This document shows positions 24,916 to 34,465 of a DNA stretch of 50,961 bases, piece after piece. This DNA comes from an uncultured Phycisphaera sp. (GTDB lineage: Bacteria; Planctomycetota; Phycisphaerae; Phycisphaerales; SM1A02). The notes beneath the pieces were generated by a model. It was given only the letters and a program-made list of their open reading frames with translations, made no database searches and was not told the origin of the DNA. The position numbers and the translations under genes are program-made. Positions within the stretch are counted from its first letter, which is position 1. The number at the start of each line of letters is the position of its first letter. The stretch is taken from the NCBI GenBank assembly GCA_937919685.1, contig CALFOM010000097.1, forward strand, positions 1-50,961. Direction: 5' to 3'.

Positions 24916-27900
24916 TCAGCCGAACAAGGAACCGGCAATTGCCAGATTCTGAGAGATCAATCCGAGTGAGGACTGCTGACTCTGAAGTCGTGCGAGTGCG
25001 GTTTCCATCGCGTTGAACTCGCGGAAGAGGCGTGCCTCCTTGGCCGCGAGCCGCTCGTCGATTAATTCAATCCGCTTGTTCTGGGCTTCGATCAACGCAT
25101 CAAAGCCCTTGCTCGCCAAGGTCACCGTACCGTCGATGGAATTGGTGAGTTTGCTCACCGCCTGCTTGAACAGATCGCCGAACCCAAGCTCGGAGTAATC
25201 CGTCGAGACCCGATCCACGGTCACTCCCGGAGCAATGGTCTCGGTACTCGTCCCCTGGCTCTTGTACGCCGCGAAGAGATTCTCAACTGCTTCTGGATCA
25301 TCTGCGTACGCCGTATCGAAACGCTCCGAATCGAATGTGATCTTGCCTTCCGCTCCGATCCGGATACCGACTTCCGAGAGGAAGCGGAACTGGGTGTCGA
25401 CCCCGACCGCAGCCTGCTGCAGAGTTCGGTACATGTCCTGCTTGATCTTGGCGACCGTTGGATCACCGAGAAGTGGACCCCGAGCCTCTTTCTCCGCGTC
25501 GTAGACATCGAATTCGTTGATGCGTCCGATTACTTCGTTGAAGCCGTCGACGAACAACTGAACCGCCGTCATGATCCCCTCTTCGTCGCGGCTGACGTTG
25601 ACGGTGACCGGCGTGTCCGAAGCCGATTGAAGATCGAGTTCGACGCCGGCCACGATGTCATTGATCACATTGCTGGTGCTCTCGACGAGAACCCCGCCAG
25701 CCCCCTCACCGATGAATACCTTCGCGTTCTTCGCTCTCGTCAGTTCGTTGAAGCCCAGATCGATTCCACCGGTGTCGACGATCAGATCGCCGGCGAGGCC
25801 CGAGATGTCGGAACTCAGCACAAGTCGAAGAGGGCTGCCGCCGGTATTGGTGTTGAGCAAGGACGCGCTCACCTGGAAGCCAGAATCGTTGACCTTTCCG
25901 ATGACTTCGTCCAGCGTGTCGGTGAGATCGAGATCGAGAATCTTCTCGTAGGATCCGTCGATCGAACCGCCGAGTTCCGCCGCTTCCCCGATGATTCCTA
26001 AATCGCGTGCCGTGCTGCCGGAAACGCTTTCCACCTTGATCGCCGAGATGCCATCCGTCGCGGTGTCGACGAGGATCATGCCGTCGCCGTTGTCGTTGAT
26101 CCGTGCTTCGACATCGAGGCCACGACTGTTGATCTCCCGCATGACGTCATAGAGATTCGACGAATCACTTCCGATGTCGACGATCGCCGTGAATCCATTC
26201 GCATCGGTGATCTTGAACTTGCCGAGTCCAACACCGCGACCGTAGTTCAAGTCATCGAGCCTGGCCGATGCGGAAACATATTCCCGCTGGATATTCAAAC
26301 CGCGGACAGTGTCCGAGGCGATATCTGTCGTGATGCCCAGCGCTTCGGCCGCTGCGCCTGAAACCACCAGGTTGCCGGTGCCGCCGCTGAGATCTTCGAG
26401 CGCCAGACCATTTTTCTCTGCGTTCAGGCGGATGGTGACCTCCACCCCAGCCAGCTTGAGTTGACTCTCGGCACTCGTGACGAGTTCATCGAGCGTCTCG
26501 AACTGATCGAGCCCGGTGATGGTCAGTGAATCGCCCTGGCGATCGGTAAAAGTGATTTCGGTTCGACCGTCGAGACCGGCGCCTCCGTTGAGACTCGCGA
26601 TCAGGCTGGTGCCGACGCCGCCGAGAATTCGCTGCCCTTGCAGACCGACCGACTCGGCATCCGTCTCGAACCCGAGATCGATCAACGTCTGGGAGGCGTA
26701 TACGCCACCCACGCCATCATCGAGAACCTTGACCAGTTCGCCCGCAGCCCCGAGGTCGATTCCCTTTCCTTCGGCGTTGATGCTTGCCGTGACGGCACCT
26801 TCGGTCTGATCGTTGATCCGATCGATGACTTCCTGAACCGTTGTCGCTCGAGCGATCTCGACAGTATTCGGAATCCGATCGCCAATGATCGTGTTCCCGG
26901 CGCCACCCCCAGCGCCAGTGAAGATGCCGAGGTCCTCCGCGGTCTCGTCGTCGAACGGCCCGGCGCCGATCACTTCGAGCGCGCCGCCACCGTCCATCGA
27001 ATCGCTCAGTTGAAATCCCTGCCCGTCATCACGGACACTCATGATCACCTGACCGGCGCCGAGTTCGGTCTCCAGCGTCTCGTTGACGCGGGCAAGCATC
27101 TCCTGCACTGTGGTGACCGTCTCACTCGAGACCTCCCCATCGTCATCAAGAATATCGCCAAGCGAGATGTCGACTTGGGTTCCGTCGCTGGTCACGATGG
27201 AAAAGTCGGCCTGACCCTCGGTACTGTTGATCCGAATTCCGTCACCGTCATTGAGATCCGAGAGCAGCGTCTCAAAGTCGATCTCCGCGTCCTTTCGACC
27301 GAGATCGATCGAGTGAACCACGCCGCCGTCGCCGCCGATCTGGATTCGAAAGTCGGCCACGTTGTCGCGGATGAAGACGCCGTTGTCATCGTTGAGCGAC
27401 GCGAGCATCGTCGTCGCGCCTACCAGATTGATCCTCGCGCCTTCGATGGTGTCGTCGTCGACATTGCCGGTGATGCCGAGATCGCTTGCCGTGGTGGTTC
27501 CGCCAATGTTCTGCACGATGAAGTTGCCTGTTCCCGTCGATTCGTCATTCAGAATGATCCCGTCGTTCTTGATCGACGCAATGACTCTGATCCCGGTCTG
27601 TTCGTTGATCGTGTCGACGACTTCCGACAACGTCGACGCGAGCGACAGGTCGATGATCACGTCGTCGCCATTCCGATCCTGAATTCGGATGGAACCGCGT
27701 TCGACTCCCCCGCCTCCGTTGGTATCTTCGAGAAGAATGTCGCGAGTCAGTCGGCCATTCCCCCATTCAAACGACATGGAGTCGAGGCCGAGCGGCTCAA
27801 GCGTGCTGCTGGTGAATCCGCGGGACATCACCTGGCTCGTCGAGACAAGTTGCTTGACGCGGAATGAATACTGGCCAGTAATCGCCGATGTGGACGCGCG

Positions 27901-28155
27901 GGCGAGAAGAACGCCTTCATTACTGCTGACGGCATTCGTCGACCGAAAAACATTGTTCTTCCGGAACGCAGAGGATGCGCTCTCGAGCGAAAGAAGCCTG
28001 GCATTGACATCGAGCAACGCGGCTTTGGAAGCATTGAGCCCACCGATGCGCTGATAGATCGGCATCTTGCTCTGGGCATCCAGCGCCAGCAATTGCTGAA
28101 TGATGGAGCCGGTATCAATACCGCTGATCAATCCGATGCTGCTGCTGATGGACAT
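24916..28155 (-). CDS. fliD: Giant flagellar filament-cap protein FliD with repeated hook-IN modules
   Basis: FliD caps the growing filament and folds incoming flagellin. The N-terminus (SSSIGLISGIDTGSIIQQLL, residues 4-23) and the C-terminal part (about 820-1079, with VQLFVDGFNEVIGRIN and a final coiled coil) match FliD. The protein has 1079 residues, about twice the usual 450-550. The extra length is a chain of six related segments ending near residues 229, 412, 496, 609, 722 and 802. Each has a hook-IN-like core of the type TLSEVVDTINEQ ... V.ASI.. and most close with DLGI or DLGF. The middle is very acidic. An AGGAG site about ten bases before the ATG supports the start. It lies downstream of a 66-residue unknown and upstream of fliS. 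Confidence 0.93.
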   Translation of the reverse strand: MSISSSIGLISGIDTGSIIQQLLALDAQSKMPIYQRIGGLNASKAALLDVNARLLSLESASSAFRKNNVFRSTNAVSSNEGVLLARASTSAITGQYSFRVKQLVSTSQVMSRGFTSSTLEPLGLDSMSFEWGNGRLTRDILLEDTNGGGGVERGSIRIQDRNGDDVIIDLSLASTLSEVVDTINEQTGIRVIASIKNDGIILNDESTGTGNFIVQNIGGTTTASDLGITGNVDDDTIEGARINLVGATTMLASLNDDNGVFIRDNVADFRIQIGGDGGVVHSIDLGRKDAEIDFETLLSDLNDGDGIRINSTEGQADFSIVTSDGTQVDISLGDILDDDGEVSSETVTTVQEMLARVNETLETELGAGQVIMSVRDDGQGFQLSDSMDGGGALEVIGAGPFDDETAEDLGIFTGAGGGAGNTIIGDRIPNTVEIARATTVQEVIDRINDQTEGAVTASINAEGKGIDLGAAGELVKVLDDGVGGVYASQTLIDLGFETDAESVGLQGQRILGGVGTSLIASLNGGAGLDGRTEITFTDRQGDSLTITGLDQFETLDELVTSAESQLKLAGVEVTIRLNAEKNGLALEDLSGGTGNLVVSGAAAEALGITTDIASDTVRGLNIQREYVSASARLDDLNYGRGVGLGKFKITDANGFTAIVDIGSDSSNLYDVMREINSRGLDVEARINDNGDGMILVDTATDGISAIKVESVSGSTARDLGIIGEAAELGGSIDGSYEKILDLDLTDTLDEVIGKVNDSGFQVSASLLNTNTGGSPLRLVLSSDISGLAGDLIVDTGGIDLGFNELTRAKNAKVFIGEGAGGVLVESTSNVINDIVAGVELDLQSASDTPVTVNVSRDEEGIMTAVQLFVDGFNEVIGRINEFDVYDAEKEARGPLLGDPTVAKIKQDMYRTLQQAAVGVDTQFRFLSEVGIRIGAEGKITFDSERFDTAYADDPEAVENLFAAYKSQGTSTETIAPGVTVDRVSTDYSELGFGDLFKQAVSKLTNSIDGTVTLASKGFDALIEAQNKRIELIDERLAAKEARLFREFNAMETALARLQSQQSSLGLISQNLAIAGSLFG

Positions 28156-28686: not shown

Positions 28687-29637
28687 CTACAGATCTTGGT
28701 TGGGATTGAACCCCATCTTCTCAAGCAAGCCATCAAACTGTTCCAGGGAGTAGAAGCCCAAGGTGACCTTCCCCTGCCCTTTTTTCCGGCCTAAGGAAAT
28801 CGCGACCTTCGTCCCAAGATGCATTGCCAGTCGCTTCTCAAGATCGGCGACATGCGGAGATGCCTCCGTACCCAAGCCACCCGACGACTTTGAACCGCCC
28901 GCTACCGCCACCTGCTGGGTTTGACGTTCCGTCTCCCGAACGCTCCACCCTTCTCGAACACACTTGGCGAGGAGGACCCGACGCCGATCGAGGTCGCGAC
29001 ATGACAGCAGAGCCTTGGCATGGCCTTGCGAAATCAGACCCTCTTGAAGAGCCTCCCGAGTCTCGACATCTGCATCGCGAAGTCGAAGTAGATTGCTCAC
29101 CGTGGCTCGATCAATTCCGAGCTGACCAGCGACCTCCGTCTGTGAGATTCCGAACTCCTCCATCAACTGCCAGATCCCATCCGCGCGTTCGATGACGTCC
29201 AGATCCTCTCGCTGGAGATTCTCAATCAATGCCCACTCAGCAGCCGTCTTGTCATCAAGATCATGGATTATCGCAGGAATATGGGTCTTTCCGAGCTCCT
29301 GGAACGCCCTCCAACGCCGTTCCCCAGCGACCAATTCAAAGCCTGCACCAGCACGCCGGACGACGATCGGTTGCATCAGCCCGGCTTGCTTGATTGATGC
29401 CGCCAGCGATGCGATGGCGTCGTCGTTGAACCGTTGCCGAGGCTGTCGCCGGTTCGGCAGGACCTGCTCCACGGGGATACTGGAGACGCCATCTGGTGCG
29501 ATGTCGACCCGGGCCCCTGATGTCGCCACCGGTGACGGAGCGGCCTCGTCAGACGGATTGATGATCACAGGCGCGTTGATCAGGCTTCCGAGCCCCCGAC
29601 CCAACCGCCGTCCCACAGGTTTCTTTGCCGTTGCCAT
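28687..29637 (-). CDS. parB: Chromosome-partitioning protein ParB
   Basis: ParB is a CTP-dependent clamp that loads at parS and spreads to organise the origin region. The 316-residue protein starts MATAKKPVGRRLGRGLGSLI, the N-terminal segment that normally touches ParA. It has the box NRRQPRQRF, the CTP-binding GERRWRA at 105-111 with ENLQRED, a helix-turn-helix (ISQTEVAGQLGIDRATVSNLL) for parS, and a C-terminal dimerisation domain. GGAGG precedes the ATG at 29637. Two parS sites lie 218 and 287 bases upstream. The partner parA is not adjacent on either side. Confidence 0.95.
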   Translation of the reverse strand: MATAKKPVGRRLGRGLGSLINAPVIINPSDEAAPSPVATSGARVDIAPDGVSSIPVEQVLPNRRQPRQRFNDDAIASLAASIKQAGLMQPIVVRRAGAGFELVAGERRWRAFQELGKTHIPAIIHDLDDKTAAEWALIENLQREDLDVIERADGIWQLMEEFGISQTEVAGQLGIDRATVSNLLRLRDADVETREALQEGLISQGHAKALLSCRDLDRRRVLLAKCVREGWSVRETERQTQQVAVAGGSKSSGGLGTEASPHVADLEKRLAMHLGTKVAISLGRKKGQGKVTLGFYSLEQFDGLLEKMGFNPNQDL

Positions 29638-29768
29638 GATCTGCCTCCATGCAAGTAATTTGAAGACGAAGCGTACCCGGTTTATTGCAGAGGCGAAATT
29701 CCTCACCGCAGCAGGACCGCTCTCCACAAAACTGACGTCACGCAAGCGGACGGCTGAGGCGCACCTTA

Positions 29769-29804
29769 TTTTCTCATATCGTTTCGTTTTCTCACATCGT
29801 TTCA
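29769..29804. repeat. Two 18-bp tandem repeats upstream of parB
   Basis: TTTTCTCATATCGTTTCG is followed directly by TTTTCTCACATCGTTTCA, differing at two positions. They lie 132 bases upstream of the parB start, between it and the parS sites, in a 530-base stretch (29638-30167) without a supported gene. Confidence 0.8.
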
Positions 29805-29827
29805 GGTGACTCCGCTTGGTTTCGCTT

Positions 29828-29854
29828 GATTCACATGATTCACATGGTTCACAT
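29828..29854. repeat. Three 9-bp repeats resembling parS half-sites
   Basis: GATTCACAT, GATTCACAT and GGTTCACAT run head to tail and lead directly in register into the first parS site, whose first nine bases GGTTCCACG look like a fourth unit. Each contains TTCACATG or a close form, one base from the TTCACGTG core of canonical parS. They may be degenerate ParB contacts or the seed from which the site arose. Confidence 0.7.
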
Positions 29855-29870
29855 GGTTCCACGTGGAACA
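29855..29870. promoter_or_regulatory. parS site 1
   Basis: GGTTCCACGTGGAACA matches the bacterial parS consensus TGTTTCACGTGAAACA in its CACGTG centre and flanking arms, with the symmetric T-to-C/A-to-G change also seen in many genomes. It lies upstream of parB, its expected binding protein. Confidence 0.88.
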
Positions 29871-29923
29871 ACAGCGATTGCGACACGCAGTCCTAAAGAA
29901 CAGCGGAAGGGGAGCGTTAGGTG

Positions 29924-29939
29924 TGTTCCACGTGGAACA
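29924..29939. promoter_or_regulatory. parS site 2
   Basis: TGTTCCACGTGGAACA is a perfect 16-bp palindrome, and the symmetry extends one base each side (GTG...CAC). It is 69 bases from parS site 1. Two sites next to parB suggest that this region is close to the replication origin and that ParB may bind its own promoter region. Confidence 0.92.
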
Positions 29940-30167
29940 CGCCATCCGGATCCAAGTCCGGTAACCACTCAGTATAGATCACGTTGTCGAATTTTGCCGT
30001 CATTTCGTTCCATTTTCGGGTCCGTTCACGTTTGTTCGATCACTTCAAGATTCCGTCCGGTTCGCCTTACTCGCTCTTGTACCGCTCACCCCACAACGGA
30101 CCGTCGACGCCGCCTTGGATCCGGTACCCTTCCCGGCTTCGCCTCGCTCTTCCAAAGGATCACTCGC

Positions 30168-30620
30168 ATGCGACGTCTTCTGAATCTCGATCCCTTCTGT
30201 TGTCTCCATCGCATGGGAAAGGGCGTCCTGCTCGGATTCCTCGTCATGGTGACCACCGCTTGTCAGTCAACCCCAGGGGGGATTCCCGCCAGCGCGGTGG
30301 TTGTCACCGCGGCACAGAATGGCGGCGCCGTCAGCGTGAAGCCGGGGCAGATGCTGGTGATTGAACTGTCCGGCAACCCCTCCACGGGGTACGTCTGGCA
30401 ACTCGTCCAATCACCCAGCGCCCAATACCTCTTGCCAGATGGAACCAAAAGGTTCCAATCCGACGCTGAGCGGGTCAGTCAATCCCAGATCGAAACGCAG
30501 TACATTCGGTTCGTGGCGCAAGAAGTGGGGGAGCTGACTCTGGAGTTGAACTATGTCATTCCCAATGTCGGCCCACAGCCGGATACACGACGGTTTTCCG
30601 TCGATGTCGTGATCGAATGA
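30168..30620 (+). CDS. Chagasin-type (I42) protease inhibitor lipoprotein
   Basis: The 150-residue protein has a lipoprotein signal with lipobox VTTAC and a mature domain containing the chagasin loop NPSTGYVWQL. Later loops fit the Ig-like fold of inhibitor family I42 that blocks papain-like cysteine proteases. It should sit on the periplasmic face of a membrane. AAAGGA precedes the ATG at 30168; an in-frame ATG at 30213 gives a shorter signal peptide but has no ribosome binding site. No target protease is obvious nearby; the S41 protease two genes on is a serine enzyme. Confidence 0.85.
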   Translation: MRRLLNLDPFCCLHRMGKGVLLGFLVMVTTACQSTPGGIPASAVVVTAAQNGGAVSVKPGQMLVIELSGNPSTGYVWQLVQSPSAQYLLPDGTKRFQSDAERVSQSQIETQYIRFVAQEVGELTLELNYVIPNVGPQPDTRRFSVDVVIE

Positions 30621-30960
30621 TGCCGGCGGCTTAGACCGCCAAGCACTCCTGAACACCACCGCAGTCCTGCCATCGCGAACGAAACCATCGAGGGCTTTTC
30701 TTCGCGCTCCCGGACGCGGTGCCGTGGCCCGAACGCGCCTGCTCCCTTCCGTCCCAAACGACCGAAAACGACGTCGGTGTCTCGGTCCGGCGCCTTCTGA
30801 AATCCTGCGGACGATGCACCTCGATCTTGAAGAGGAGCAGGTTCTGTGTCAGAACGCATTGGCCGCGCCTCGAGTTCGGCTTCCGTTTGAACCGTCGTGC
30901 GTCATGCCGGCCACGTTCGTGTTCGACGCGAGAACCCGCTTGAGTCGTTCCAAGTGAGAG

Positions 30961-30992
30961 TGAGTGAGTGAGTGAGTGAGTGAGTGAGTGAG
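30961..30992. repeat. Eight perfect TGAG tetranucleotide repeats
   Basis: Eight copies of TGAG run without a break, with an imperfect copy just before. The array lies in a 950-base stretch (30621-31570) with no gene I can support. Apart from this array and the leader at 31279-31400, I see nothing there. A 4-bp unit of eight copies is long enough to slip during replication. Confidence 0.9.
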
Positions 30993-31278
30993 CACATGCC
31001 ACAACTCATCACCTTCACTCGTTCGGCCCGGAGTCTCCCGTCAATCCGAGGACCGTGGCAGAACTCTGATGCTCGCCACGCTGGGGGTCGCAGAGGCTTG
31101 AGATGTTCCGCCGTCACCGCGCACACCACGATCAGTCTCTGGGCAACAACGGCAACGACTCCAACCTTGATCACGCCCGGAGCGCCTTGGCGTCGCCTGT
31201 GCCAACGCAAAGAGCGACGGAGGACGCTGCAACGACCCCAACACGGTGATTTGATCATGTGGAGATTTCGCCGGACTG

Positions 31279-31287
31279 TGCTATGAT
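31279..31287 (+). promoter_or_regulatory. Extended -10 promoter element
   Basis: TGCTATGAT is an extended -10 box (TGnTATAAT type). A weak TGTGGA lies 18 bases upstream as a possible -35. Transcription would start near 31293-31295, which is exactly where the predicted structured leader begins, so the two predictions support each other. Confidence 0.5.
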
Positions 31288-31292
31288 CCCGC

Positions 31293-31400
31293 GGTCGTGC
31301 TCGAGGAAGGCGGTGTGAATCCGCCACGCACGCGGCACCGTGTGTTCATCGAAAGTCTTTTTCAGACTTCGACCGAACGAGTCGGGTCGTCGATCACGAC
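31293..31400 (+). promoter_or_regulatory. Cobalamin-riboswitch-like structured leader
   Basis: The core GAGGAAGGCGGTGTGAATCC (31302-31321) resembles the AdoCbl aptamer core (GGGAA..GGTG..AATCC). It forms a GGCGG/CCGCC hairpin around TGTGAAT, followed by GCGGCACCGTGT, comparable to the CCCGCAACUGU segment. A variable hairpin follows (CGAAAGTC/GACTTCG, 31350-31371), then an AGTC as in the AGUCAGGA segment. Outer strands GTCGTG (31294-31299) and CACGAC (31395-31400) can close the whole as P1. The 3' AGGA..ACC segment is not well conserved, so it may be a variant or a non-B12 relative. It is 170 bases upstream of the PEP-CTERM gene. Confidence 0.5.
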
Positions 31401-31570
31401 ATGTCCTTCGGGCCCGCGCGAGTCGGGCGACCGATTGTCATTGGGGTCGCGCCGTGCCATCCCGATCGAGTCGCTTAGCCATCGCACATCGAACCACGTG
31501 ATGAACGTCATACCGACGTCCATGACGCCGAATCGATCTAAGGGGCTGCGAATCGGGTTGGAGCGCGTAC

Positions 31571-32140
31571 ATGTCCGTCTTCTCATCAATCATTCGTCAC
31601 ACCTCCCGATTCCGCCTCGGGATCTTCCTCCTTGGCCTGTCACCGGCACTCACCGGACACGCCGATCTGGTGCAAACCTGGGAGGTCGGCGAGGGGCAGT
31701 CGTCGGCGATGGTCCAGTTCGATTTTCTCGCTGGAAATACCTATACGGTCGAAGTGTCATTCGACGGTTCGATCAGCGGGCAGGGTGTGCTTGATCTCAT
31801 TGCCACCGAAGCAAGCGCGGCAGGATTCAATTTCAACTACGACGTCATCAGCTACTCCTTCGGTGACTTTCTCGTCGGTATCGACCTCGACAGTGATGGC
31901 GACTACGGCGACGGCTCCGCGCCGCCGTACCTCGATTACTGGCACTACTGGTCGCGAGAGCGCGACACGAACTGGACCGAATCGATGATCGGATTCAGCG
32001 ATCGAATCCTCACCGATGGTGCCGCAGACGGCTGGGTCTTCGGAACGACCGACGCGCCCGCGCAGATTCCAGCCCCGGCGAGCCTCGCCCTGGCGATTCC
32101 TGCTGTCCTCGCGATACGCCGTCGCCGACGCGACCGCTGA
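31571..32140 (+). CDS. Secreted PEP-CTERM-type protein
   Basis: The 189-residue protein has an N-terminal signal peptide (hydrophobic GIFLLGLSPALTGHA). Its C-terminal sorting signal is PAPAS (167-171), a short hydrophobic helix LALAIPAVLAI and an Arg-rich end RRRRRDR, the PEP-CTERM pattern cut by exosortases. The mature part is acidic, contains a DSDGDYGDG calcium-binding-like stretch and resembles a small beta-sandwich. It should be exported and processed at the cell envelope, possibly linked to the exopolysaccharide. GGAG precedes the ATG by seven bases. No exosortase gene is in the window. It follows the riboswitch-like leader. Confidence 0.85.
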   Translation: MSVFSSIIRHTSRFRLGIFLLGLSPALTGHADLVQTWEVGEGQSSAMVQFDFLAGNTYTVEVSFDGSISGQGVLDLIATEASAAGFNFNYDVISYSFGDFLVGIDLDSDGDYGDGSAPPYLDYWHYWSRERDTNWTESMIGFSDRILTDGAADGWVFGTTDAPAQIPAPASLALAIPAVLAIRRRRRDR

Positions 32141-32302: not shown

Positions 32303-34465
32303 ATGCGTCTGCGCCCCCGCGATATCCAGTTCGTGATCGCCTCGATCCTCCTGCCTTTGAGCACGGGGTGTATCTCCGCCGGTCCGGAGATCGATCGTTA
32401 TCACGCCCCGACCTCTCTGGTTGCCGACAACACCGTCTCCGAGTGGAGCATGGACGTCTGGCAGACGGCAAGAGCGGGGGAGACCAACGCCACGATCGAA
32501 GCGTTGCTTGACCCACCGAACCTTCAAGCACCAAACCTTGAAGCACCCACGCTTGAAGCGAGCATCACATCCGCCATCAATCGGTTCGTGAGCCTCGAGG
32601 AAGCCGCGGTGGGCAATCGGACGCTTGAAGTAGATCGCCTTCTCTTAGAAATCGAACCGGAGACCCTCGATCCATCCACCGTCGATCGACTCTCGCTTCT
32701 CGCGGATCTTCGCGCCGCCGGTCTACCGTCGGAAACGGATCAGCGTGCGGCCCAGGCGATCGAGACTGCCATCGATGCCTGGGTCGAGGCCGCAGAGACC
32801 GCTGAGGCGGCATCGCAATTCGACGAGGCGGACGACGCCTGGAACGCCGTCGGCAGCATCGCGATTGGATCGGATCGACCCTTGATCCTTGTCGAAGCAC
32901 GGCGCCGCCAACGTCGATTGAACAGTCTGCAGCGCAGCGGTCCGTCACCCTCCCGAAGTGACGGCTTCGGAAGCGAGCGGCCAACCATCGATGATGCACT
33001 ACGAGCGTTCAACACGATTTTGGAGTTCCATGTCGACAGTCCAACCTGGAAACGGCTTTGTGATGCCGGGTTCGCGCAGATCGCCGAAGCAATCCCCGTG
33101 CTACTACAGGGTTCGAAGCTGACCGAAGGAGAAGCGGCGCTTGCTGATGCTCGATCCACCTTCAAACTGGCGACCGCCGGAATCGACGCCCGCCCAGGAG
33201 ACCTTCCCTCGAAGGTTCGAGGAGCGCTCAAGTCGTCGCTCAAATTGATCGGGTCGGACTACGCGATCACTCCGCTTCGCCCCTCCGTGGTTGCTCGGCT
33301 CTTTCTTGACGGCGCGATCGCGGCGACGGATCTGCGGACCAACGCCTACTTTGGACCACAGGCCGATCAGGTGCGTCGCCAACTGGAAGCCACGTATGTC
33401 GGCATCGGCGCCGAAGTTCGACAGACGCCAAAGGGCGTCTTTCTCCAACCCATCTCGGGAAGCCCCGCCGCCCGTGCCGGAATGCGCGGCGGTGATCGAA
33501 TCCTCGCCGTCGACGGCAAGGACGTCAAAGGAAAGTCCAGCGACTCGATCGTCGGACTGGTCTCGGGACCAATGGATACCGCGGTCCGACTCACGCTCTC
33601 GCGAGAAGGCGTGACGGATCAGTTCGATATCGACGTCACTCGTGAAGAGGTCGAACGCGAAGCAGTGCTCGGTTGGCGACAGAAGGGGGTTGATGTCGAC
33701 GGTCGCCCGATCTGGGACTGGCTCATCGATCCCCATGCGGCCATCGCTTTCATCTCCATCCGGGAGTTTCGCGAAGACGTCATCGGTCGGTTTCGATCGG
33801 CATTCCGCGAAGCGTCGGACACCCTCGGTCCTGACCGCAGCGTGGCCGGTCTCATTCTTGATCTTCGCGATGATCCCGGCGGACTTCGATGGGTCGCAGA
33901 GGATCTGCTCGATCTCTTCGTTTCCAACGGGACAATATTCTCCGCGGAGGGTCGTCGCGGAAAAGTCCGATCGCACTCCGCAAGTTCCTTCAGCACTCGT
34001 CTTGAAGGACTTCCGATCGTCGTTCTGGTGAACAGTTCGTCCGCCAGCGCCTCGGAGATCGTCGCCGGAACCTTGCAAGCGGTTGGTGGTGCGGTGGTGG
34101 TGGGGGAGCGCACCCATGGCAAGGGCAGTGTTCAAACCGTTCGCACGCTGTTCAACAACGGATACGCCTTCGTGACCGAATCATGGTTTACCGTTCCCGA
34201 TGGCCGAGGAGGCCGACGATTGATCGATCGTTACCGCGCCGGCGAGCAATGGGGGATCGAACCAAACTTGCCGGTCGGCGCGACGATGACCGAGACCATG
34301 GCAATCATGTCCGAACGTGGTCGCTGGCACTCCGGCCGAGGGCTCGATGCCCCCAGGCCCGAAGACCTCGCACCGACGCTCGCGACGACCAACGATCGTG
34401 AACTCCTGCTTGCGGTGGCACTGCTCCGCGCCAGGTTGCTCCCGACGTCACTTTCCATCGAGTGA
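32303..34465 (+). CDS. S41-family (CtpA-like) serine protease lipoprotein with PDZ domain
   Basis: The 720-residue protein has a lipobox STGC with Cys23. Residues 50-350 form a helical region of unknown function, including a small APNLEAPTLEA repeat. A PDZ domain spans about 360-445 with GSPAARAGMRGGDRIL. The S41 catalytic domain has the nucleophile in SSSASASEIVAG (probable Ser582) and the general base Lys607 in GERTHGKGSVQ. Both catalytic residues are present, so it is likely active as a periplasmic C-terminal processing protease anchored to a membrane. The long N-terminal extension is unusual for CtpA. The end faces the convergent cytochrome gene across 38 bases. Confidence 0.9.
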   Translation: MRLRPRDIQFVIASILLPLSTGCISAGPEIDRYHAPTSLVADNTVSEWSMDVWQTARAGETNATIEALLDPPNLQAPNLEAPTLEASITSAINRFVSLEEAAVGNRTLEVDRLLLEIEPETLDPSTVDRLSLLADLRAAGLPSETDQRAAQAIETAIDAWVEAAETAEAASQFDEADDAWNAVGSIAIGSDRPLILVEARRRQRRLNSLQRSGPSPSRSDGFGSERPTIDDALRAFNTILEFHVDSPTWKRLCDAGFAQIAEAIPVLLQGSKLTEGEAALADARSTFKLATAGIDARPGDLPSKVRGALKSSLKLIGSDYAITPLRPSVVARLFLDGAIAATDLRTNAYFGPQADQVRRQLEATYVGIGAEVRQTPKGVFLQPISGSPAARAGMRGGDRILAVDGKDVKGKSSDSIVGLVSGPMDTAVRLTLSREGVTDQFDIDVTREEVEREAVLGWRQKGVDVDGRPIWDWLIDPHAAIAFISIREFREDVIGRFRSAFREASDTLGPDRSVAGLILDLRDDPGGLRWVAEDLLDLFVSNGTIFSAEGRRGKVRSHSASSFSTRLEGLPIVVLVNSSSASASEIVAGTLQAVGGAVVVGERTHGKGSVQTVRTLFNNGYAFVTESWFTVPDGRGGRRLIDRYRAGEQWGIEPNLPVGATMTETMAIMSERGRWHSGRGLDAPRPEDLAPTLATTNDRELLLAVALLRARLLPTSLSIE
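32519..32563 (+). repeat. Three 15-bp repeats inside the S41 protease gene
   Basis: Three in-frame 15-base units (AACCTTCAAGCACCA, AACCTTGAAGCACCC, ACGCTTGAAGCGAGC) encode the NLQAP/NLEAP/TLEAS repeat near residue 73 of the protease. The units are diverging, so they look like an older duplication in a spacer. Confidence 0.75.

Follow-up and report, generated by a model that had tools for sequence, protein, structure and literature searches.

The leader at positions 31278-31437 of the analysed window (the whole stretch of 50,961 nucleotides of a contig from an uncultured Phycisphaera sp.) is best read as a compact cobalamin (corrinoid) riboswitch controlling a surface B12-capture protein, a reading to which we assign a probability of roughly 0.83. 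Judged from comparative sequence analysis, the window RNA is real and of the cobalamin riboswitch class, as a compact variant of this known class. The elements of the locus, all on the plus strand, are as follows.

31260-31265 (+): weak -35-like hexamer TGGAGA, 16 nt 5' of the -10 element; consensus scan
31279-31287 (+): extended -10 promoter element TGC-TATGAT; sequence and scan
31294-31304 (+): 5' strand of the core-closing stem P3 (called P1 in the original prediction), 10 of 11 positions paired with 31390-31400; covaries across relatives
31305-31308 (+): GGAA junction, near-invariant in 59 elements
31309-31325 (+): perfect P4 hairpin GGCGG-TGTGAAT-CCGCC, paired in 59 of 59 sequences, with changes in both strands at three of the five pairs
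31326-31341 (+): P5 hairpin ACG-CACGCGGCAC-CGT with the GC-rich loop L5, paired in 59 of 59 sequences and nearly invariant
31331-31334 (+): kissing-loop bases CGCG of L5, complementary to L13; covary across the family
31344-31378 (+): variable hairpin P6; base pairing covaries
31380-31386 (+): AGTCGGG, start of J6/3, near-invariant
31390-31400 (+): 3' strand of P3, partner of 31294-31304; covariation
31412-31428 (+): P13-L13 hairpin GCCCG-CGCGAGT-CGGGC, whose loop bases 31417-31420 pair with L5; present in relatives, with kissing-loop covariation
31560-31563 (+): Shine-Dalgarno sequence GGAG, 7 nt 5' of the ATG; sequence
31571-32140 (+): gene whose secreted 189-aa product resembles a stand-alone transcobalamin beta domain, as predicted from an AlphaFold2 model, Foldseek and VIA-align

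Inspection of the sequence placed every part of the leader named in the original prediction where it had been described within 31279-31571. The P13-L13 hairpin (31412-31428) is an addition to that list, and its loop CGCG can pair with the CGCG of L5. The pattern TGnTAnnnT is conserved at the -10 position in most congeners. A run of GAGT tetranucleotide repeats lies upstream of the promoter region (30958-30991).

A single-sequence scan leaves the window element below threshold, since cmscan of the window at gathering level reported just two tRNAs and no cobalamin riboswitch. The copy misses the gathering scores of both relevant Rfam families: it aligns to the full RF01482 model over 31278-31437 with 37.3 bits (E 2.4e-5 for 501 nt; gathering score 50), and it scores 23.9 bits with RF00174 (E 6.2e-4 genome-wide; gathering score 31.5). 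It is because these cut-offs are not reached that the element is filed as a variant, a cut-off being a curator's threshold and not a structural feature. Most members of the compact family also miss the Rfam cut-offs, and three of the 18 orthologous elements scanned exceed that of RF00174 (L142, 44.9 bits; L127, 37.0 bits; L135, 34.4 bits). Minimum-free-energy folding did not set the leader apart from shuffled sequences (z -1.0).

Despite this sub-threshold result for the single copy, the element proved to lie far beyond chance once its relatives were used. The alignment comprised 59 distinct elements, with orthologues from the genus and the family, and 19 proposed base pairs. Pairing was found in 84.1% of the cells of the alignment, compared with 65.8% (SD 0.9) in shuffled controls and 31-45% in slid structures; the cells count related sequences and do not give strict probabilities, and the slid-structure control preserves this relatedness. 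The covariation score for the 59 aligned elements was 0.468, against 0.162 (SD 0.011) after shuffling. A strand-swap analysis, in which 3' strands were exchanged among elements without any alignment, gave mean best helix scores of 8.5 versus 6.1 (SD 0.17) for P3 and 7.2 versus 4.6 (SD 0.15) for P6, i.e. approximately 14 and 17 SD, respectively, above random pairing. L5 and L13 were complementary in 47 of 55 elements, compared with 26.1 (SD 3.0; maximum 37 in 2000 swaps) on exchange, with the pair types CGCG/CGCG, UGCG/CGCA and GGCG/CGCU; the remaining eight elements are exceptions. The proposal of a cobalamin-aptamer-like leader is thus borne out by the presence of its parts, by the covariation of P3, P4, P6 and the kissing loop, and by those orthologues that pass RF00174; an RF00174 match at relaxed thresholds is also present, and the stems are conserved in relatives.

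The traits of the cobalamin class found here are a P3-P6 core with covarying stems and the L5-L13 kissing loop, which is CGCG/CGCG in the window. In comparison with Rfam clan CL00101 (RF00174, Cobalamin; RF01482, AdoCbl), the element shares (i) the GGAA / GGUG..A.UCC / P5 / AGUC.GG core, (ii) the P3-P6 junction, the kissing loop and an alignment to RF01482 over its full length, and (iii) a translational-type layout, with the Shine-Dalgarno sequence near P13 in many members. In contrast to the clan, the compact element lacks an accessory domain and its P6 is a single short hairpin, its L5 is rewritten to the consensus ACGaACGCGUCACCGU, departing from the usual CCCGCCACUGU, and the window copy stays under both gathering scores. 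It also occurs solely before one secreted protein family rather than before the usual transport or synthesis genes.

This association was examined from both sides. Homologues of the 189-aa product were found at 78 loci of public genomes (77 non-duplicate), nearly all of them metagenome-assembled genomes (MAGs) of Planctomycetota. A covariance model built from the element alignment, R1, detected the element at 74 of the 77 non-duplicate loci; of the three others, two start inside the gene and one is a match to the C-terminal tail only (truncated or spurious). Compact elements score at least 60 bits with R1, whereas canonical riboswitches reach at most 51 bits; the window element, at 88.8 bits, is normal for the family, and loci outside the R1 building set score 60-94 bits (L044, L077, L084, L093, L112, L117, L148, L149), which supports the element independently. 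An RNA-driven search of 81 genomes returned 21 matches of at least 60 bits, each in a different genome of the taxonomic family of the window, and in each of these 21 cases a homologue of the next gene lay directly downstream on the same strand. Across 392 genomes of the phylum, R1 matches of at least 60 bits were again confined to this family. The element was therefore rejected as a marker of PEP-CTERM genes in general, since every strong match in the 81 genomes precedes one protein family. The original prediction had proposed a genome search for the element before PEP-CTERM genes, which disclosed no general association, and had offered a related RNA class tied to exported proteins as an alternative. 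Of the latter idea, a recognisable sub-class tied to one exported family stands, and a link with PEP-CTERM genes at large does not. The planctomycete locus also occurs on contigs that bear the labels Hyphomonas, Limnohabitans, Chitinophaga or Bacteroidia (L074, L079, L114, L133, L137); these MAGs are likely mis-binned or mislabelled, L074 being identical to L073 in both its match and the length of its contig.

The downstream gene was described in the original prediction as encoding a secreted PEP-CTERM protein, which holds: on inspection, the product has a PEP-CTERM-like C-terminal tail (IPAPASLALAIPAVLAIRRRRRDR) with PxP, a hydrophobic helix and a basic tail, and the genome encodes three exosortases. 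The profile PF07589 misses the window protein itself, though it matches six of 52 homologues. The AlphaFold2 model, built with 14 homologues, has a confident core with blocks above 90. The first-ranked Foldseek match was the human transcobalamin beta domain with bound cyanocobalamin (E 9.7e-5), and all of the top 16 matches were transcobalamin, intrinsic factor, haptocorrin or RUMGNA_00854, which is bacterial and has the transcobalamin beta-domain fold; the same holds for the top 15 of VIA-align. With the latter, human intrinsic factor reached Z 12.6 (105 residues, 2.3 A); the beta domains of transcobalamin and intrinsic factor came first with Z 12.6 (101-105 residues) and ranged over Z 11.3-12.6 in all, compared with Z 6.2 for the first unrelated fold. 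As regards the beta-hairpin insert that follows the helix in transcobalamin-like SLBB domains, the order of secondary structures in the model is a helix at 70-84 followed by strands at 88-95 and 98-106, with which such an insert would be compatible.

The 189-aa product is therefore predicted, on the strength of this model, to be a stand-alone transcobalamin-type B12-binding beta domain; the isolated human transcobalamin beta domain binds cyanocobalamin (PMC5599065). None of the sequence profiles of the family reached transcobalamin or DUF4430 in searches of Pfam and PDB sequences, and for this reason the claim is one of the same fold and not of membership in DUF4430. The predicted fold of about 100 residues is shared with the C-terminal beta domain of transcobalamin and intrinsic factor (SLBB superfamily; PMC1796856). 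In contrast to these proteins, the product stands alone, lacks the alpha/alpha toroid, carries a PEP-CTERM-like tail, goes unrecognised by Pfam DUF4430 or PDB sequence searches and has strong motifs of its own (WHYW and DGWVFG). A weak match was obtained with the NCBIfam family SCO2322 of Streptomyces, with which it shares a YWxYW..W..S..G..DG..DGW segment (weak matches in 17 of 52 homologues, the best at 7.7e-6); unlike SCO2322, the product family is far under the curated cut-off and the match is partial. Weak matches to YopE_N and Epf were dismissed as chance. A transcobalamin-like SLBB clade has been noted in planctomycetes, with B12 scavenging suggested and no riboswitch mentioned (PMC1796856).

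The genome contains one other RF00174 match, on contig C201 (locus L061), which is over the threshold (56.4 bits). The features of this locus and of the fused gene described below are listed here.

L061:2606-2827: cobalamin riboswitch preceding p61
L061:2884-3837: p61, predicted BtuH-like secreted protein with a dockerin-like C-terminus
L061:3825-4667: gene 3' of p61; its start is of the N-methyl (type IV pilin-like) kind, and it matches DUF1559 weakly
L154:1135-2733, and L155 on the minus strand: fused transcobalamin-like and BtuH-like protein

The p61 model (pLDDT 88.9) matched BtuG1 from the BtuB1-BtuG1 complex of Bacteroides (Foldseek E 3.1e-6; Z 13.5 for the domain) and BtuH2 (7biz_A; Z 13.9, 3.1 A, 144 residues, 26% identity), with 25-26% identity across BtuH2 and BtuG1. 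The protein is thus predicted to have the fold of the BtuH B12-binding C-terminal domain, BtuH2 being a B12-binding lipoprotein of Bacteroides thetaiotaomicron (PMC8941943). The matched domain, and probably also surface B12 capture under B12 control, is common to p61 and the BtuH2 and BtuG1 proteins of B. thetaiotaomicron (PMC8941943; PDB 7biz, 8blw). The latter are lipoproteins with PKD domains, whereas p61 ends in a dockerin-like C-terminus, and the TonB-dependent partner BtuB was not found in the window genome.

In most relatives p61 lies behind full riboswitches, and the two genes meet in sister lineages. A homologue of the 189-aa gene follows directly a full RF00174 riboswitch (67 bits) in a genome of another family of the order (G044). 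In other families of Phycisphaerae (L151, L156, L157, L159) a full RF00174 riboswitch of 70-90 bits precedes an operon made up of the 189-aa homologue and p61, and at L154 and L155 a single protein combines both domains, its gene following a full RF00174 riboswitch (68 and 74 bits). Both riboswitch-led genes of the window genome hence encode proteins that resemble known B12 binders in their structural matches, and the gene fusion ties them together. At L154 and L155 a terminator-like hairpin and a T-run stand before the fused gene, i.e. a transcriptional platform, unlike that of the window family. The pair formed by p61 and the pilin-like gene recurs at L048. Pilin-like (N_methyl, DUF1559) genes directly follow transcobalamin-like or BtuH-like genes at L022:1-936 (minus strand), L048:1458-1904 and L061:3825-4667, and on account of this position behind riboswitch-led genes they may be co-regulated by B12.

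Given the predicted B12-binding domain and the riboswitch and BtuH-like context of the homologues, the pairing in the window follows the usual logic of a riboswitch set before a transport function and is unusual in its protein, rather than coupling a riboswitch to an envelope gene that has nothing to do with B12. The statement that the next gene is not a B12 gene has accordingly to be revised, since a transcobalamin-type B12-binding domain is predicted for its product and homologues lie behind over-threshold riboswitches, beside or fused to a BtuH-like protein.

The content of the host genome, which is 97% complete, agrees with the import of cobamides by a route that lacks the usual BtuB. It encodes four proteins with B12-binding domains, B12-dependent enzymes, and one locus with BtuF-, BtuC- and BtuD-like genes. 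One profile search each of this 97%-complete genome gave no match for CobQ or for TonB-dependent receptors. By inspection, the neighbours of the leader in the window are a chagasin-like protein upstream (29826-30620, plus strand), a PDZ-containing S41-type protease downstream (32303-34465, plus strand), and ParB-like and FliD-like genes further to the left (28687-29886 and 24916-28155, both on the minus strand).

Three other explanations of the leader were weighed. That a GC-rich leader resembles the cobalamin models by chance would agree with the sub-threshold score and the unremarkable folding energy of the single copy, but the comparative evidence (dozens of relatives conserve the element with covariation, invariably ahead of one and the same gene) refutes it, and we regard its probability as negligible. 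An RNA that has retained the cobalamin scaffold while responding to another ligand, or to a different corrinoid such as cobinamide, and that is tied to the exported family, would explain why compact elements separate from canonical riboswitches with their own model (at least 60 versus at most 51 bits), as well as the altered L5 and the failure of most members to reach the Rfam cut-offs. This is unlikely, however, as the core and kissing loop are kept with compensatory changes, some members pass RF00174, the same gene stands behind ordinary RF00174 riboswitches in relatives, and the downstream protein itself has the predicted fold of a B12 binder.

The remaining explanation concerns the window species, in which the element could be a degenerate, non-functional remnant with constitutive expression of the gene. 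One P3 pair is lost, P13 lies approximately 140 nt from the start codon, and the CGCGAAU hairpin found near the Shine-Dalgarno sequence in congeners has no stem in the window. Decay of this kind is nevertheless very unlikely: the core, P4, P5, L5 and the P13-L13 hairpin are intact, the family-model score is normal, and the distant P13 hairpin is common to five congeners.

Under the preferred reading, that of a compact cobalamin riboswitch, B12 would repress the cell's own surface-capture proteins; we infer both the ligand and the direction of regulation as the best reading of the comparison. In characterised corrinoid riboswitches, binding of the ligand shifts the RNA towards the L5-L13 kissing loop; this contact stabilises P13, and with it a hairpin at the ribosome-binding site or a terminator (PMC10653944, PMC9600662). 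By analogy, a cobamide bound to the core would promote the pairing of L5 with L13 and stabilise the P13 hairpin, which would reduce translation of the mRNA that follows. Under B12 scarcity the cell would produce the secreted PEP-CTERM protein, which would take hold of cobamides on the cell surface and deliver them inward, together with the BtuH-like partner of the other riboswitch locus, towards a BtuFCD-type ABC transporter. The output of the exported protein probably depends on cobamide supply, as originally proposed, the ligand being deduced from comparison.

Repression of translation is the natural reading because P13 adjoins or overlaps the Shine-Dalgarno sequence in many relatives (for example L103, TCCTG-CGCAACT-CAGGA-AGGAACCACATG; L111, L127 and L142), its 3' arm containing or abutting that sequence in several of them. 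No intrinsic terminator was found near the window gene, which makes transcription attenuation less likely there. The last step is least certain in the window species, in whose genus the clear P13 is separated from the ATG by about 140 nt. In most congeners (L035, L036, L038, L039, L043) a second hairpin with the loop CGCGAAT, resembling a duplicate of L13, abuts the Shine-Dalgarno sequence (e.g. AACCGG-CGCGAAT-CCGGTT-GGAG); its stem has been lost in the window (31535-31570). The signal might there reach translation through a loose fold occluding the ribosome-binding site or through Rho-dependent termination.

Searches of the open-access literature returned no planctomycete study in which PEP-CTERM proteins, or bacterial proteins of the transcobalamin type, are linked to a cobalamin riboswitch, which is weak evidence of novelty. 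As far as this literature shows, the regulon, in which B12 presumably controls a transcobalamin-like protein of the exosortase type that has a BtuH-like partner, is new. The locus points to B12-controlled surface capture of B12 in bacteria in which TonB-type outer-membrane receptors were not found. Much more tentatively, and on balance still doubtfully, Planctomycetota without TonB-dependent receptors might use an undescribed B12 uptake route, in which exosortase-anchored transcobalamin-like and dockerin-bearing BtuH-like proteins, each under its own riboswitch (or, in sister lineages, joined in one operon or one fused protein) and with co-transcribed pseudopilin-like proteins, take up cobamides on the cell surface and deliver them to BtuFCD. 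If so, the transcobalamin beta domain and the BtuH-type domain would act as partners, like the alpha and beta domains of animal transcobalamin.

With the present reading, an unannotated secreted family of many Planctomycetota gains a predicted ligand and function, and a B12 riboswitch on an exosortase-type surface protein is exemplified. How B12 passes the envelope where no TonB-dependent receptor was found can now be tested directly on two specified genes. The locus also provides a bacterial relative, standing alone and presumably under B12 control, of the animal B12-carrying domain, which bears on the origin of transcobalamin.
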